Positions 618-17,195 of a stretch of 25,088 nucleotides of DNA are shown piece after piece; position 1 is the stretch's first letter, and every line of letters begins with the position of its first letter. The DNA is from a virus. The stretch is taken from positions 1 through 25,088 of the IMG/VR virus record IMGVR_UViG_3300009481_000089. One strand, written 5' to 3'. The position numbers and the translations under genes are program-made. The notes under the pieces were generated by a model, which worked only from the letters and a program-made list of their open reading frames with translations, was not told where the DNA came from and did not search any database.

Positions 618-1748
618 ATGAAACAAAAACTTTTATTAGGAGCATTGTTCATATCTGCTCTTTTCTTTGGTAATCCTGTTGTTGCCGATACACAAACTGG
701 AACCTGTACCGCAGGCTCAGAGTATTGTGAAGCTAATTCGTTAAATACTACTAATAGTACAACGACTACTAATACCAATACCAACACAAACACCAATACT
801 AATACCAACACCAACACAAATACTAATAGTAATACAAACGTAAATACTACTACGACTACTGGTACTAATACAAATACTAATACAAATAATAATACGAACA
901 CTAGTACAAATAATAATACAAATACCAGTACTTCGACAGCTACCAATACTAATAACAATACAAATGTTAATACAAATACAAATGCTAATACGAATGTAAA
1001 TACTAATAATTCTACTAGTACTTCCAATGTTACTAGTAATTCTACTAATACTAATAATAACAACAACAATAATGTAAATACATCTACTAGTAATAGTACA
1101 AGCAATAACACAAACAATAATAATAATACTAATAACAGTACTAGTAATAATACAAATACGAATACTAATGTAAATCAAAGTACATCTGATTCAACTGTTA
1201 CTACAGATAATACAAACAATAACAACAATACTAATACTAGTACATCCGACAACACTAATAGAAATATAAATGAGAGCAAGTCTGAACAGGTTATCACGCA
1301 AAATATCAATCAGAAAGCGCCGCCTGCTTCTGCGATTGCTCCTTCTATTATGAGTTATAGCCAAGACCTGTGTACAACCGGAGTAAGCGGTGCGTTTCAA
1401 GGACAGGTGTTTGGATTATCAGGAGGAAAAGCAGTTCGTGATGAGAATTGTGAGCGTTTAAAACTTTCTAAATATCTATATGATACTGGCATGAAAATAG
1501 CGGCAGTCGGAATACTTTGCCAAGATCCTAGAGTTTTTAAAGCAATGCACATGGCAGGAACTCCTTGTCCTTACGAAGGCATGATAGGAGAAGAAGCTAA
1601 GACTGCATGGAGACAGAATCCTGAAGATAGACCAGACTATGAAGAAGCTAAAGATAGATACGTTAAAAGATGTAAAGCCGAAAAGACAGAAGGTAAGGTA
1701 AAGAAATCAAGGCTCACTTGTGTTAGAGAATTTAAAAACCAAACTTAG
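618..1748 (+). CDS. Secreted Asn/Thr-rich low-complexity protein with Cys-containing C-terminal domain
   Basis: The gene follows a strong ribosome binding site (AGAGGGGG). Residues 1-23 form a classical Sec signal peptide (basic MKQK, hydrophobic core, VVA cleavage site). Residues about 40-230 are almost only Asn, Thr and Ser in irregular NT/NN/TS repeats. The C-terminal 125 residues are ordinary sequence with spaced cysteines (DLCTTGVSGAFQG, NCERLKLSKYLY, ILCQDPRVFKAM, TPCPYEG), which suggests disulfide bonds and therefore a periplasmic or extracellular place. It overlaps the next gene by 29 nt, so the two are probably made together. I recall similar C-terminal domains in marine phage and metagenomic proteins but know no function. 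A host-envelope or surface role is inference. The low-complexity part makes homology searches unreliable unless only the C-terminal part is used. Confidence 0.8.
   Translation: MKQKLLLGALFISALFFGNPVVADTQTGTCTAGSEYCEANSLNTTNSTTTTNTNTNTNTNTNTNTNTNTNSNTNVNTTTTTGTNTNTNTNNNTNTSTNNNTNTSTSTATNTNNNTNVNTNTNANTNVNTNNSTSTSNVTSNSTNTNNNNNNNVNTSTSNSTSNNTNNNNNTNNSTSNNTNTNTNVNQSTSDSTVTTDNTNNNNNTNTSTSDNTNRNINESKSEQVITQNINQKAPPASAIAPSIMSYSQDLCTTGVSGAFQGQVFGLSGGKAVRDENCERLKLSKYLYDTGMKIAAVGILCQDPRVFKAMHMAGTPCPYEGMIGEEAKTAWRQNPEDRPDYEEAKDRYVKRCKAEKTEGKVKKSRLTCVREFKNQT
744..1270 (+). repeat. Degenerate AAT/ACN codon microsatellite
   Basis: This stretch of the secreted protein gene consists of short degenerate units such as AATACT, AATACC and AATACA. 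They are read in frame as Asn-Thr, with Ser and Val interspersed. The repeats are degenerate at third positions. They produce long spurious open frames on the opposite strand, rich in Val, Leu and Ile, which should not be annotated. Such arrays can change length by slippage. Confidence 0.85.
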
Positions 1749-3915
1749 TTTATTTATAGGTTCTCTTTTATTATCCTTTAATCTAAGTGCTAATGAATGG
1801 ACCACAGGAACCAATAGTATTCTCGATCTGAGAAACTATACCGAAACTACTCAATATAATTTAGGCGATGACAGTCGATCGGGTGCGGTTGGCATAGGAT
1901 TTGATTTTGATTTTTACAACCAGACATACACCCAAGGCTATATTTCTACTAATGGTTGTTTTTCTTTCACCACAGCGTATTGCAACGACTATACACCTGA
2001 TCCCTTACCTGACACGAATCATACCATCTATCCTTTTTGGACTGATCTTATAAGAGATAACGGATCTAAAATACTTTCTAAAAAATTTGAGGTTGATGGT
2101 GCAAATGATTACTTTGTTGTTGGATGGTACAATCTTCGTGAGTATAACCGATCATCTGATAACACCTTTGAATTACTTCTTTATGAAAATAATTCAGCCA
2201 TAGAATTTCGATATGGCGATTTAGATATTATAAATCACGATGTACTTATAGGACTTCAAGGGACAAGTACAGAGTATACACAATATTTATTCCACGATGA
2301 ATGTAATACAGGAACTACAAATGTGGCAGGAACCTGTGTTAATACTAACTGGAATAATAGTAACTTTAATACTCTACTAGAAAATAAATCTTTATCTTAT
2401 AGTAATCAATGCGCCATCAATCCTCTTAGTAGTACTGAATGTGCAGGCTATCAAGTAGCATACTTCACTCAGCAATGTGGTTTGAATCCTTTGTATGATA
2501 ATGCTTGCGTTGGATACTGGCAGGCATTTGATGATCAGCAATGTGACTTAGATCCACAGTACGCACCTTTCTGTCCGGGATATACACAAGAGCAATCGGT
2601 AGCTTATTTTATAGCTGATGATTTTGATTATGGCTATGAAGAAGAGTACGACTATGGGTACGTAGAGGAAGAATATTTTTGGGAAGAGCCTCCTGAATAT
2701 ATAGAAGAGTTTTATGTAGAAGAATTTTATGAAGAGTTCTTGCCTGTAATGCTTGAAGAATATTCTGATGCACCAATTTGGCTAGCTCCTTCCGAAGAAT
2801 TTATTCCTTTTGAAGAACTAGTATATATGGTAGAGGAAGAACTTCCTGAAAGTATGGAAGACTTACCAATCTTTGAAGAAGAAATGTTAGATTCTATATT
2901 AGACTTTGAAGAATATGATTTAAGTTACATGGCTCAAGCTCATCCGTCTCAGGGAATAGGAAGAGAAGCTCTTATAGAAGAAGCAGAAAGATTAATTTTA
3001 AGAGAAGCTCCTATAGACGAACCCATAGAAGAAGCTATAGAGTTTGAAAGCATTGAAGAATTAGAAGAACAACTAGAAGAGTTTGAAGAATTAGAAGAAG
3101 AGATAGAAGAATTAGAAGAAGAGATAGAAGAAGAAGAACTTGAAGAAGATGAAAAAGAAAATAAGATCGAGCAACAATTAAAAGTAGTACAAGGCACAAT
3201 GCTTACCGCAATTAATAGTGTTAGTGGCACAACCGCAGGGACTTCCTTGCACTCCACAGGCACTTCGAGGGCATCAGGCGGCACATCCTCTAGCACAACA
3301 ACATCAGCAAGTGTGTCTGGTTCTACTGGTAGCGGAATATCTTTTTCAAGTTCGCCTTCTATCTCTGCACAAATTGTTAGTTCTGCGGTACAGACACAAC
3401 AAGTATTAACAATGAGTTCTGCTGTAGATACTGGTGCACAATCTTCAATGGGAGCTACGTCAGAAGCGACAACAGTAGCCAGTATGGACACAGGAACTTC
3501 AGAGGTTATGACGACAGAAACAGCCAGTACAACTGTAGATACTTCTGTTGCAAGCACAGAAAGCACAGAGACTGCTGTAGTAGAAACTTCAGAACAACCA
3601 ACACAAACTGTTGCACAGAATATAAAACAACAGCAACAAGAAATGGAAGAACAGCAATCTGAGACAGGAGAATACGCAGACTCTTCTGAATTAATTGCTA
3701 TCATGGGAACTGTAGAAGGATTTGATGTATATAGAACAGCATCAATGCCTCCTCAACCTACATGGTATGAGCCAAAAGATATTTATGCGAGCGCAGTATT
3801 GCCTGATAATGTTAGAGCATTTGCAGGTTTAGCTTCTGCAAGTATAAATCAATTAACAAATATGAGAAACTTACAACCAAACTTAGACGGAGGAAATCAT
3901 GGAATGGTTAAATAA
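1720..3915 (+). CDS. Secreted multidomain protein: NIDO-like domain, Cys repeats, acidic and Ser/Thr-rich regions
   Basis: The gene starts at a GTG inside the previous gene, with AAGG about 7 nt before it. Residues 1-24 are a signal peptide (SLFIGSLLLSFNLSA). Residues about 25-210 resemble the NIDO extracellular domain in pattern: a FDFYNQTYTQGYISTNGCFSF strand region, then IYPFWTDL, FVVGWYNL and a FELLLYENNSAIEFRYGD segment. Residues about 230-295 carry three imperfect repeats of the form QC-x-hydrophobic-NPL...CxGY. Residues about 300-480 are strongly acidic, ending in a Glu/Leu run likely to be coiled. Residues about 490-640 are Ser/Thr/Ala-rich, and a short ordinary C-terminus follows. 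NIDO domains occur in adhesive extracellular proteins. An exported adhesin or surface fibre is a reasonable inference, but a signal peptide is unusual for a virion tail protein. Confidence 0.78.
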   Translation: MLENLKTKLSLFIGSLLLSFNLSANEWTTGTNSILDLRNYTETTQYNLGDDSRSGAVGIGFDFDFYNQTYTQGYISTNGCFSFTTAYCNDYTPDPLPDTNHTIYPFWTDLIRDNGSKILSKKFEVDGANDYFVVGWYNLREYNRSSDNTFELLLYENNSAIEFRYGDLDIINHDVLIGLQGTSTEYTQYLFHDECNTGTTNVAGTCVNTNWNNSNFNTLLENKSLSYSNQCAINPLSSTECAGYQVAYFTQQCGLNPLYDNACVGYWQAFDDQQCDLDPQYAPFCPGYTQEQSVAYFIADDFDYGYEEEYDYGYVEEEYFWEEPPEYIEEFYVEEFYEEFLPVMLEEYSDAPIWLAPSEEFIPFEELVYMVEEELPESMEDLPIFEEEMLDSILDFEEYDLSYMAQAHPSQGIGREALIEEAERLILREAPIDEPIEEAIEFESIEELEEQLEEFEELEEEIEELEEEIEEEELEEDEKENKIEQQLKVVQGTMLTAINSVSGTTAGTSLHSTGTSRASGGTSSSTTTSASVSGSTGSGISFSSSPSISAQIVSSAVQTQQVLTMSSAVDTGAQSSMGATSEATTVASMDTGTSEVMTTETASTTVDTSVASTESTETAVVETSEQPTQTVAQNIKQQQQEMEEQQSETGEYADSSELIAIMGTVEGFDVYRTASMPPQPTWYEPKDIYASAVLPDNVRAFAGLASASINQLTNMRNLQPNLDGGNHGMVK

Positions 3916-14586: not shown

Positions 14587-16266
14587 CTAGAAGTCTTCAT
14601 TATAAAAAGTGAGATCGTCTGTAAGTTCATGCATTCTACCAGAATCTTTATCGTATTTAAGAAGACACGCTAACCCTGTGTCTCCTGTATATCTCGATTT
14701 TAAAACTCTAACCTTAGTAGTGTTTGCTTCTACAGGATCTTCTGCTTGTTGATTTCTCTCAAGTGCAATAACACAATCACTCAACTGTGATATACCTTGA
14801 GATCCTTTTAGATGTGACAAGGAAACTACAACACCTTGTTCGTGTCCTCGATCTCCTAATGCTCTGCGTAAATGAGATACCAAGAACAATCCTACTCCTG
14901 TTTCTTCAACAAGAGAACGAAGCCTTTGCATTAGCTGATCTATACCTCGTCTTTCATCTGATTCAGTAAGGCAATTAACTAACATATGCAGGTGATCTAC
15001 AACTATCCATTCACATTCACACCCTACTATCATATACCTTAGCTTAGAAAAGATCTCGTCTATATTGGTTGCACCTAAATGAGAGTGAATAAATACTCTA
15101 CCTTTCTGTATAACCTTATCAAACAGTTCGCTTAATTCTTCATCGCTATAATTCTCTCGTCTTTCGGTAAGATATAAGCGGTCGTTTGCTTCAATAGATA
15201 AGATTCCGTCTGCGGTGCGCAACCAGTTCTCTTCTAACGCTATGATACCCACATTTTCTGTGGTATTTTTAATGAGATAGTGACTGAGTTCTCTAGTAAA
15301 ACTAGATTTACCTAGTCCTGTGCCACCAGTTAAGGTAACAAGTTCTCCTTTTCTCATACCAAATAGTTTCTTATTAAGTCCTTCCCAAGGATAAGCAAGG
15401 CTTTCCTTTTCTTCTCGATGTAACCATTTGGATTTCTCATTGGAAAGTTCTAAGATACCTGCCGGAGTATACTTCTTGGCATCCCACCATGCTCTGTTAA
15501 ACTCAGCAAACTTTGCTTGTTGTAGCATAGCATTGGCATCTTTGTGTCCATTAGGTAGTGTCATTATCTTAACCTTGCCCGGCTTTATAATGTTCGCTAC
15601 TTCTCTAGCCGCTTTCCTGCCTGCTTGATCATTATCAAAACACAATACAACATTCTCAAATGCTTCAACAAATTCAATGCTATCTCTGATATCACGAACA
15701 GCAGACTGAGCACCTCGTTTAATAGACACGACTGCCCATTTACTATCCATCATTTCATGTGCCGCCATCGCATCACATTCACCTTCACATATTGTAAGGT
15801 GCTTGCCACCATTACGGAATAGCTGTTCTCCAAACAGTCCAGTATTCTCATATGTTCCGTTGAATCTAAAATCTTTTCCTTCAGAAACTAATCTTGTTTT
15901 AGTTCCTACGATTTCATTGTTGTTATAAAAAGGATAGATGTGTTTGGCTATCTTACCTTGCGCATCATATACTATTCTAGTGCCATACTTACGAGCAACC
16001 TTTTCGCTTATACCACGATCAGTTAGCTCAGCAAATACACCTGTATAAGAATTTAAAAATGATGTTGGTTCTTTTTCTACCACGAAATCTTTTTTGCTGA
16101 TTCCATTACTAGAACTGTCCATAGTAGACGCATAGTCTGTAAACCATTCGCCACAACTAAAACATTTAGCTGTCCCATTTAAGTTTCTAGCTACTGGATC
16201 AGAGCCACCACACTTAGGACATGGTAGTTTATATTCTGCCCAAGTGCTACCTCTCTCTTTCTCCAT
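14587..16266 (-). CDS. T7 gp4-type primase-helicase
   Basis: Order of domains: zinc ribbon (C16, C19, C35, C38), TOPRIM primase (E161 in ICEGECDA, D211-x-D213 in CFDNDQAG), then RecA-like helicase with Walker A GGTGLGKS (314-321), catalytic EEN, and VDHLHML as Walker B. RYTGDTG near the end matches the T7 arginine-finger region. The protein ends in an acidic tail with a terminal Phe (YNEDF), as T7 gp4 does, the part that contacts polymerase. I chose the ATG at 16266 because GGAGGG precedes it at ideal spacing. A GTG at 16302 would put the start inside a predicted terminator hairpin. It unwinds DNA and primes the lagging strand. Confidence 0.97.
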   Translation of the reverse strand: MEKERGSTWAEYKLPCPKCGGSDPVARNLNGTAKCFSCGEWFTDYASTMDSSSNGISKKDFVVEKEPTSFLNSYTGVFAELTDRGISEKVARKYGTRIVYDAQGKIAKHIYPFYNNNEIVGTKTRLVSEGKDFRFNGTYENTGLFGEQLFRNGGKHLTICEGECDAMAAHEMMDSKWAVVSIKRGAQSAVRDIRDSIEFVEAFENVVLCFDNDQAGRKAAREVANIIKPGKVKIMTLPNGHKDANAMLQQAKFAEFNRAWWDAKKYTPAGILELSNEKSKWLHREEKESLAYPWEGLNKKLFGMRKGELVTLTGGTGLGKSSFTRELSHYLIKNTTENVGIIALEENWLRTADGILSIEANDRLYLTERRENYSDEELSELFDKVIQKGRVFIHSHLGATNIDEIFSKLRYMIVGCECEWIVVDHLHMLVNCLTESDERRGIDQLMQRLRSLVEETGVGLFLVSHLRRALGDRGHEQGVVVSLSHLKGSQGISQLSDCVIALERNQQAEDPVEANTTKVRVLKSRYTGDTGLACLLKYDKDSGRMHELTDDLTFYNEDF

Positions 16267-16283
16267 AGGAGAACCCTCCATAT

Positions 16284-16316
16284 AAAAATGGGGCAGGCTC
16301 ACTTAGAACCTACCCC
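16284..16316 (-). terminator. Intrinsic terminator or attenuator before the primase-helicase gene
   Basis: On the minus strand GGGGTAGG pairs with CCTGCCCC (8 bp, one G-U), with an 11-nt loop, then A and five T. An upstream ACCCC at 16335-16339 could pair instead with the GGGGT arm, so termination may be partial. It lies between the ssDNA-binding protein unit and the primase-helicase. Confidence 0.65.
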
Positions 16317-16338
16317 AACCACACTAAACGCACAGGGG

Positions 16339-16563
16339 TTAGTCGGATTTGTTAGGGGTATCTGATGGACTGTCAGATTGATATTCGCTAATCAATTCAT
16401 TTTGAAAAGCCTTCAATACAATATCCTTCTCTTGAAGTTGAATAAGTAAATGATTCTTTTCATCAGTCAATCTGTGAAGACGACCAACAATTAGCTTACC
16501 TTTATCTGACAATTCATCAGGATTTATTTGAACACCATCAATTGTTATGGTCTTAAGTTCCAT
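16339..16563 (-). CDS. Small coiled-coil protein of unknown function (74 aa)
   Basis: The ATG shares one base with the stop of the ssDNA-binding protein gene (TAATG), so it is translated with it. Residues about 18-55 show a heptad pattern (GKLIVGRLHRLTDEKNHLLIQLQEKDIVLKAFQNEL). The C-terminus is a short Ser/Asp/Pro tail (SDSPSDTPNKSD). It is the last gene before a predicted terminator. No family was recognised; a partner of the ssDNA-binding protein is suggested by position only. Confidence 0.75.
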   Translation of the reverse strand: MELKTITIDGVQINPDELSDKGKLIVGRLHRLTDEKNHLLIQLQEKDIVLKAFQNELISEYQSDSPSDTPNKSD

Positions 16564-16976
16564 TAAAACTCTTCTCCGTCAAGGAGTTCAGCACCATCTT
16601 CTGATCTGTATTCAATAAGATCAAGAACTTGGACAGCTTGTAGGTCTAAACCTTTATAGTCTCCAAATTTATTTGATCCTTCGTATTCAGCATACTGGAC
16701 TTTTACTTTAGAGCCATTACCAACTGCGTAATTAACCTCTTGTTTGTTGACATCCAATAGTCTTGGCGCAGGTCTAACCATACCATTAGGACCATTTACT
16801 TTCCTTTTGATAATGATTGCAGGACCTTCATCCATTTGTTTGATCTTGTGTCCACGACCTGCAAAATCATTTGCATCGTCTTCACTAACAACTAAGTTAA
16901 GTGTATACACAGGTTCAAATCGTGTGTTAGGCGTTTTAATGCTTGCCCAATAAGCCGTTCCTTCTGCTATAGCCAT
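16563..16976 (-). CDS. Single-stranded DNA-binding protein (T7 gp2.5-like)
   Basis: The protein (137 aa) is rich in beta-strand pattern consistent with an OB fold (YTLNLVVSEDDAND, GPAIIIKRKVNGPNG, GSKVKVQYAEYEG). It ends in an acidic tail with a terminal Phe (DGAELLDGEEF), as T7 gp2.5 does. Such tails dock on polymerase and helicase and shield the DNA-binding groove. It is the first gene after a strong promoter and a structured leader, and its start has GAGG about 9 nt before it. It coats single strands during replication and recombination. Family assignment rests on pattern, tail and position in the replication block, so it is likely but not certain. Confidence 0.85.
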   Translation of the reverse strand: MAIAEGTAYWASIKTPNTRFEPVYTLNLVVSEDDANDFAGRGHKIKQMDEGPAIIIKRKVNGPNGMVRPAPRLLDVNKQEVNYAVGNGSKVKVQYAEYEGSNKFGDYKGLDLQAVQVLDLIEYRSEDGAELLDGEEF

Positions 16977-17024
16977 AGTTTTTTACCTCGCTGTTTAGCA
17001 TGTTATAGTTAAATCAATCCTTCA

Positions 17025-17158
17025 ATCTTGTCGGATCGAGCCACAAACTCTGCACCCATTTGTGCGGTTCATCTTAGTAAGCAACCAAGATTAAGACGCA
17101 TCTAGAGGGAACAGAGACAGGGCATTGTGCGTCTTAGTGGCTCTCACCTGAACAAGAT
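17025..17158 (-). ncRNA. Structured RNA with predicted four-way junction, leader of the ssDNA-binding protein gene
   Basis: Read on the minus strand, five helices fit together. P0 is 17152-17158 with 17025-17031 (7 bp). P1 is 17137-17143 with 17038-17044 (7 bp). P2 is 17128-17136 with 17092-17100 (9 bp, 27-nt pyrimidine-rich loop). P3 is 17085-17091 with 17071-17077 (7 bp, 7-nt loop). P4 is 17062-17065 with 17052-17055 (4 bp). P1/P2 and P2/P3 have no linker and could stack. P3 needs a G-U pair that works only on the minus strand, the strand the promoter at 17166-17195 transcribes. The RNA starts about where transcription should. A 48-nt A/U-rich segment with GAGG separates it from the ATG. 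It could be a cis-regulator of the downstream gene or a stand-alone RNA. Confidence 0.68.
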
Positions 17159-17165
17159 AAGTGCC

Positions 17166-17195
17166 AGTATAGCACAAGTGCCTACTGTTTGTCAA
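17166..17195 (-). promoter_or_regulatory. Sigma70-type promoter for the ssDNA-binding protein unit
   Basis: TTGACA at 17190-17195 and TATACT at 17166-17171 are separated by 18 bp. The -35 overlaps the end of the upstream coding region. A perfect 10-bp palindrome AGAATATTCT (17197-17206) abuts the -35 and may be an operator. Expected start is near 17159. Confidence 0.82.

Follow-up and report, generated by a model that had tools for sequence, protein, structure and literature searches.

A structured leader between a promoter and ssb

The stretch of viral DNA analyzed here (hereafter the window) comprises 25,088 nucleotides of IMG/VR record IMGVR_UViG_3300009481_000089, and its replication genes are closest to those of the Pelagibacter phages HTVC103P, HTVC104P and HTVC115P. 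The window single-stranded DNA-binding protein (SSB) is 46-51% identical to the SSBs of these phages, and the DNA polymerase has 48% identity to the nearest Pelagibacter phages. The minus strand carries, in order, a sigma70-type promoter, a 134-nt element (17158-17025) and ssb. The initial annotation had described the promoter as strong, and we find that TTGACA-N18-TATACT (17166-17195) scores 11/12 matches, with a TG ahead of the second hexamer; the same promoter is visible in the leaders of relatives. From its position, the transcript is expected to start at about 17159-17160, exactly at P0, the outermost helix of the element. An A+U-rich linker (16977-17024) carries the Shine-Dalgarno-like GAGG of ssb (16989-16986). 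The ssb gene (16563-16976) encodes a 137-aa protein with an acidic DGEEF tail and a predicted fold like that of T7 gp2.5 (AlphaFold pLDDT 84; top solved structure in Foldseek 1je5, T7 gp2.5, E = 4.9e-7).

Downstream on the same strand are a small ORF of 74 aa in the ssb/primase interval (16339-16563), an intrinsic-terminator-like hairpin of 12 pairs (16289-16317) and the DNA primase-helicase gene (14587-16266), whose ATG at 16266 was chosen by its ribosome binding site (RBS), UGGAGGG (16274-16280). The hairpin parts the small ORF from the primase gene in the window, and comparable hairpins are found in many relatives. Elsewhere in the window, the opposite strand carries a 731-aa ORF (1720-3915, plus strand) that has no PHROG match.

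The element had been proposed, from the letters alone, to fold into five helices, and all five are present on the minus strand where they had been drawn. P0 (ATCTTGT/ACAAGAT in DNA letters) pairs AUCUUGU (17152-17158) with ACAAGAU (17025-17031) and delimits the entire structured leader (17025-17158), which is supported by folding and by a covariance-model match. In the nearest relatives the P0 strands have other sequences and are still complementary (67% of cells paired), and group A, one of the two closest groups, has counterparts of the window P0. P1 (GAGCCAC/GTGGCTC), which is always paired in relatives, joins GAGCCAC (17137-17143) to GUGGCUC (17038-17044). P2 (TAAGACGCA/TGCGTCTTA), which covaries among relatives, is formed by UAAGACGCA (17128-17136) and UGCGUCUUA (17092-17100); it encloses a large loop (17101-17127) with a conserved pyrimidine motif (GCCCUGUCUCUGUUCCCUCUA in the window), which we propose to be an antisense loop. 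P3 is the hairpin AUCUUGG-UUGCUUA-CUAAGAU (17071-17091), the helix that had been said to depend on a G-U pair (ATCTTGG/CTAAGAT). The P4 arm (17045-17070; core GCAC/GTGC), which is divergent in the window, reads GAAC-C-GCAC-AAAUGG-GUGC-AGA-GUUU and shuts the junction without linkers. Two linker-free junctions had been counted, which is too few: the P4 extension, GAAC (17070-17067) with GUUU (17048-17045), lets all four arms meet without a linker.

The leader is predicted to be markedly stable, with a minimum free energy of -48.7 kcal/mol versus -33.3 +/- 3.6 for shuffled sequences (0/200 shuffles as low; z = -4.3). Folding thus bears out a stable structure, but the minimum-energy fold is a rod and not the four-way junction. 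In the rod, CUCUGU (17116-17111) pairs with GCAGAG (17048-17053), with pair probabilities of 0.73-0.98 in the nested model, and P2 is broken. The four-way junction, at -47.3 kcal/mol, lies 1.4 above the rod, and in these models the two folds compete; this gap decides nothing, because the nested model scores neither coaxial stacking nor pseudoknots. The initial annotation had suggested that CTCTG in the P2 loop (17116-17112) could also pair with CAGAG (17052-17048). Both segments exist, and relatives in groups A and B (see below) have a counterpart, CUCCA with UGGGG, that differs by two compensatory changes (by hand alignment), but the pairing rivals P2 and P4 instead of adding to them. For the window leader, the homologs support the junction.

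Relatives define an RNA family

Using SSB-based scans together with a motif scan of marine viral contigs, we gathered 184 distinct leaders, part of which were retrieved through the motif itself; approximately 170 of the 184 carry the RNA. Wherever true members were parsed (61/61) the RNA lies directly upstream of ssb, and the same is true in the window. Matches from a 14-mer scan of genome contigs look like chance, and four chance motif matches (L088, L110, L124 and L141) were discarded. The RNA is absent from the leaders of more distantly related SSBs that lie in other contexts (L058, L072-L074 and L076-L081), from the isolates HTVC103P, HTVC104P and HTVC115P (L082-L084) and from phage ctwe8250 (L085). 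A nucleotide search of the phage collection returned zero matches, and therefore no named isolate of that collection has the RNA. A gene annotated as a toxin-activating lysine-acyltransferase stands two genes upstream of ssb in HTVC104P (L083) and HTVC103P (L084). The initial annotation had recognized no known riboswitch family; in agreement, Rfam 15 gave no meaningful match at gathering or relaxed E-value thresholds, and neither Rfam nor the literature searched holds a description of the RNA.

The relatives closest to the window by SSB fall into groups A and B (82-93% identity), and a larger main subgroup is referred to here as type C. At E <= 10, a covariance model of the main subgroup only failed to recover the window. 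A bridging model was built from ten group A/B sequences, excluding the window and type C. This model matches the window at 17143-17038 (minus strand) with E = 6.3e-7, the next match in the window being at 0.27, and it also retrieves members of type C, such as L358 with E = 4e-7 (all of these E-values are rough, coming from a shortened calibration). Groups A and B bridge the gap from the window to the main subgroup. Because one model matches both the window and type C, we conclude from these sequence comparisons that the window carries a divergent member of the family. A covariance model was among the checks put forward at the outset, and one made of relatives without the window does recover it.

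The type C leaders share the layout GAGY, AACC..loop..GGUU, the P3 hairpin, CAACU-CC-GAGAGU-AGUUG and GCUC-ACA-ACUCUC, in which P1-P4 form a four-way junction with zero unpaired linkers. RNAalifold, applied to 24 main-subgroup relatives, yields the identical linker-free junction unaided. Covariation was measured on a MAFFT alignment that was not fitted to the structure. In this alignment 94.3% of cells are paired, and changes on both sides are seen in 15 of 25 pairs, compared with 7.3 in shuffles, although these pair counts come from sequences chosen by a structure-guided parse and are biased to paired cells. Less touched by that selection are the covariation score, 0.338 versus 0.181 +/- 0.011 for shuffles (0/500), and its slide control, at most 0.098 when the partners are slid. 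Covariation in homologous leaders had been named in advance as the test of the fold, and the score stands far above both controls. Comparative sequence evidence thereby confirms the four-way junction of the leader and indicates that this previously undescribed phage RNA family is real.

Groups A and B retain P1-P3, and their P4 and pseudoknot are weaker. In group B leaders (for example L004 and L010), a second hairpin 3' of P1, AUAGC..GCUAU, contains a C-run able to pair with the GGGG segment, which suggests another layer of alternative pairing.

A pseudoknot and possible autoregulation by SSB

The type C leaders also contain a pseudoknot that the initial annotation had missed, in which GAGAGU of the P4 loop base-pairs with ACUCUC of the tail just 3' of P1. 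Its two strands vary together, as GAGAGU/ACUCUC, GGGAGU/ACUCCC, AGGGU/ACCCU, GACAGU/ACUGUC (L333) and GGGGUU/AACCCU. In the window, a 4-bp GGGU x AUCC pairing is the sole candidate, and a pseudoknot there is unsupported.

This arrangement bears on an early suggestion that SSB represses its own mRNA as in T4 gene 32, with surplus SSB binding the pseudoknot, spreading over a UUAA-rich tract and covering the ssb Shine-Dalgarno sequence. Part of the analogy gains from the main subgroup: an H-type-like pseudoknot (S1 4-5 bp, L1 1-3 nt, S2 5-7 bp) is followed by a tract of 30-49 nt to the start codon, and the linkers are enriched in UUAA (96 versus 43.6 +/- 5.3 in shuffles) and UUUAA (50 versus 12.9 +/- 3.5), in counts that ignore kinship. 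The invariable position of the RNA ahead of ssb would also fit. However, the protein has the gp2.5 fold rather than that of gp32, the window is without a supported pseudoknot, and autoregulation leaves the junction and the invariant P2 loop unexplained. By analogy, then, autoregulation is possible but somewhat doubtful. It is compatible with the antisense function that we propose below for the P2 loop, and the two roles can coexist.

In most relatives, the P2 loop matches the primase-helicase ribosome binding site

The most conserved part of the RNA is a 13-nt motif in the P2 loop, mostly GCCCUCUAUCUCCA. When the 1.5 kb past the ssb start was swept without bias, the best matches to the loop clustered near the primase-helicase start. 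In type C, the primase-helicase RBS, (U)UGGAGAUAGAAUG, is the exact antisense of the P2 loop, and the two form 9-12 Watson-Crick pairs. Using automatic RBS and start assignments, we find that among 68 distinct primase RBSs of type C, 63 form at least 9 contiguous Watson-Crick pairs, with imperfect matches in a few relatives (L342 and L443). By comparison, the runs are 4-7 for the ssb RBS and for most other RBSs. In a test against loop shuffles that preserve CUCC, 37 of 40 were observed versus a mean of 0.13 of 40, and 2 of 2000 shuffles reached the observed number. Base composition was assessed with the reversed loop, which gives -13.3 kcal/mol with the primase RBS and -10.4 with other RBSs, compared with -16.7 for the real loop and the primase RBS. 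This shows that composition accounts for part of the pairing energy but not for the runs.

In divergent lineages, loop and RBS also change in parallel. For instance, L011 pairs loop UUAUCUCCA with RBS UGGAGAUAA, L483 pairs CACUCUCC with GGAGAGUG, L493 and L009 pair CAUCCCUC with GAGGGAUG, and group B shows a shift of register, CCUCCUCA with UGAGGAGG. These parallel changes support real pairing. When loops were swapped over 24 variants, the mean run was 8.58 with the own RBS and 7.69 +/- 0.23 with swapped ones (0/5000), a test that overstates independence because the variants are few and related. Among the relatives, the loop thus shows what is expected of an antisense RNA: it is complementary to its target, and the two coevolve. 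In the window, the loop and the primase RBS have a Watson-Crick run of 5 (CCCUC x GAGGG; 7 pairs with one G-U), which 9 of 23 other RBSs equal. The antisense match is degraded in the window, where we infer the function by homology only.

Other explanations for the conserved loop were weighed against the same data. Kissing between the P2 and P4 loops was rejected as the cause of the conservation, as the type C P4 loop changes with the tail and the P2 loop is constant. A cis switch in which the P2 loop sequesters the ssb Shine-Dalgarno itself would fit the nested folds, where no other single segment pairs with that sequence as often as the loop does (mean probability 0.31). The ssb RBS pairs with the loop at -9.1 kcal/mol, though, versus -10.2 for other RBSs of the same loci, which are as good or better in 65% of cases, and its Watson-Crick runs reach just the 4-7 given above; we discarded this candidate as improbable. 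Still less credible is a riboswitch for a small, nucleotide-type ligand. The conserved junction, pseudoknot and loop, along with possible alternative folds, are what such an RNA might have, but the nucleotides that stay invariant are those of a terminal loop with complementarity to an RBS and not those around the junction, ssb is the sole gene ever found downstream, and Rfam gave no match. From the sequence comparisons, an antisense match to the primase RBS appears to account for the conservation of the P2 loop better than either autoregulation or ligand sensing.

The loop may have several targets, of which primase is one. In the broadest form of this idea, the leader acts in trans as an antisense RNA on a large set of phage RBSs (consensus GGAGAUAG) as well as on an early-gene cassette, AUAGAGGGCAAGG, and primase is no more than its strongest target. 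In whole contigs, with primase left out, runs of at least 9 occur in 13 of approximately 489 RBSs, as matches to sites of the GGAGAUA type, versus 1.0 +/- 1.9 for CUCC-preserving shuffles, but the ten genomes involved are related. In most of the group B loci whose upstream sequence extends far enough, the 5' half of the loop is matched by the cassette; in other genomes the cassette drifts, and it is also found as UCGAGGGC and UAGAGGAC beside an unchanged loop. The cassette as a second target is suggestive, and we consider multi-target action as a whole unlikely.

Several further features of these genomes contain loop-complementary sequence. The short conserved cassette, (C/U)UACAAA...UAUAGAGGGCAAGGNAAAUG, precedes early genes that differ entirely from phage to phage, 0.4-2.2 kb upstream of ssb (L488, L025, L358, L464, L423 and others), and contains AUAGAGGGC, which could pair with the 5' half of the P2 loop by complementarity. 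GGAGAUA(G), a common form of RBS in the whole contigs L500-L531, is complementary to the 3' half. The codons of the DGEEF tail (about 16580-16563 in the window, and in relatives too) also serve as the RBS of the small ORF that follows, and this RBS can pair with the P2 loop (GAUGGAGA x UCUCCAUC in group A; GACGGAGA x UCUCUGUU in the window).

A proposed link between SSB and primase-helicase

The element is the 5' leader of the ssb mRNA and a member of the new RNA family, most members of which present a P2 loop that is complementary to, and varies with, the primase-helicase RBS 0.65-1.05 kb downstream. Based on these data, we propose that the loop pairs with this RBS. Pairing would block translation of the primase-helicase and would thereby tie its output to the ssb transcript. 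The pairing could occur in trans or in cis; pairing in cis would need read-through transcripts, because the terminator-like hairpin stands between ssb and primase, and pairing in trans would need none. The purine segment of P4 may act as a switch, being paired either with the tail, which would leave the P2 loop exposed, or with the P2 loop, which would mask it. Taken as a whole, a structured leader that is both scaffold and switch for an anti-RBS loop against the primase-helicase is an explanation that we favor with moderate confidence. Its core, an antisense loop against the primase-helicase RBS, is the best-supported function in the relatives and extends to the window by homology only. The loop probably tunes the production of replication proteins in these marine phages.

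A more speculative extension concerns what sets the switch. SSB, or ribosomes at the ssb start, might disturb the tail and free the P4 loop, so that the P2 loop is masked or unmasked. The ssb leader would then be dual-function, an SSB- or ribosome-set switch, one state of which exposes a universal anti-RBS loop directed, both in cis and in trans, at the primase-helicase and at early genes. We hold this fuller scheme to be rather improbable; if it were true, a single 5' UTR would run the replication programme of these marine phages.

Phages need balanced amounts of their replication proteins. If the proposed pairing is correct, a leader that is built on a linker-free four-way junction, and whose loop coevolves with the start site of a second replication gene, would link the levels of SSB and primase-helicase through RNA only. 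Members occur widely in marine viral contigs, and the family offers a concrete test of DNA-phage mRNA leaders as antisense regulators, beside the classical gp32 model.

Comparison with known systems

In the RNA phage MS2, a long-distance interaction with upstream RNA masks the replicase start. The function proposed here is similar in that upstream RNA would mask the start of a replication gene; it differs in that the phage is a DNA phage, the leader is a separate structured RNA and its action is possibly in trans. Long-range pairing on an operon mRNA is also known from the E. coli infC-rpmI-rplT operon, where a long-range pseudoknot in the bL20 operator exerts translational control (PMC10931766). 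In our proposal, by contrast, a dedicated structured 5' leader serves as the upstream partner, its target is 0.65-1.05 kb off and beyond a terminator, and the phage leader has no known protein involvement.

In the leader of T4 gene 32, a pseudoknot lies 67 nt ahead of the start and is accompanied by A+U-rich UUAA(A) repeats (PMC3014915). Like the operators of T4, T2 and RB69, the type C leader belongs to a phage SSB gene and runs from a pseudoknot through an A+U-rich, UUAA-containing tract to the RBS. However, the pseudoknot here is part of a larger RNA, a four-way junction without linkers that also bears a conserved antisense loop, and the SSB is gp2.5-like rather than of the gp32 type. By this analogy, the likeness is one of layout and not of membership. 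Lastly, the lambda OOP RNA is a phage antisense RNA that controls cII by base pairing (PMC12197685). The leader described here would similarly be a phage RNA controlling a phage gene through base pairing, with the difference that its antisense loop sits inside an mRNA leader encoded elsewhere.
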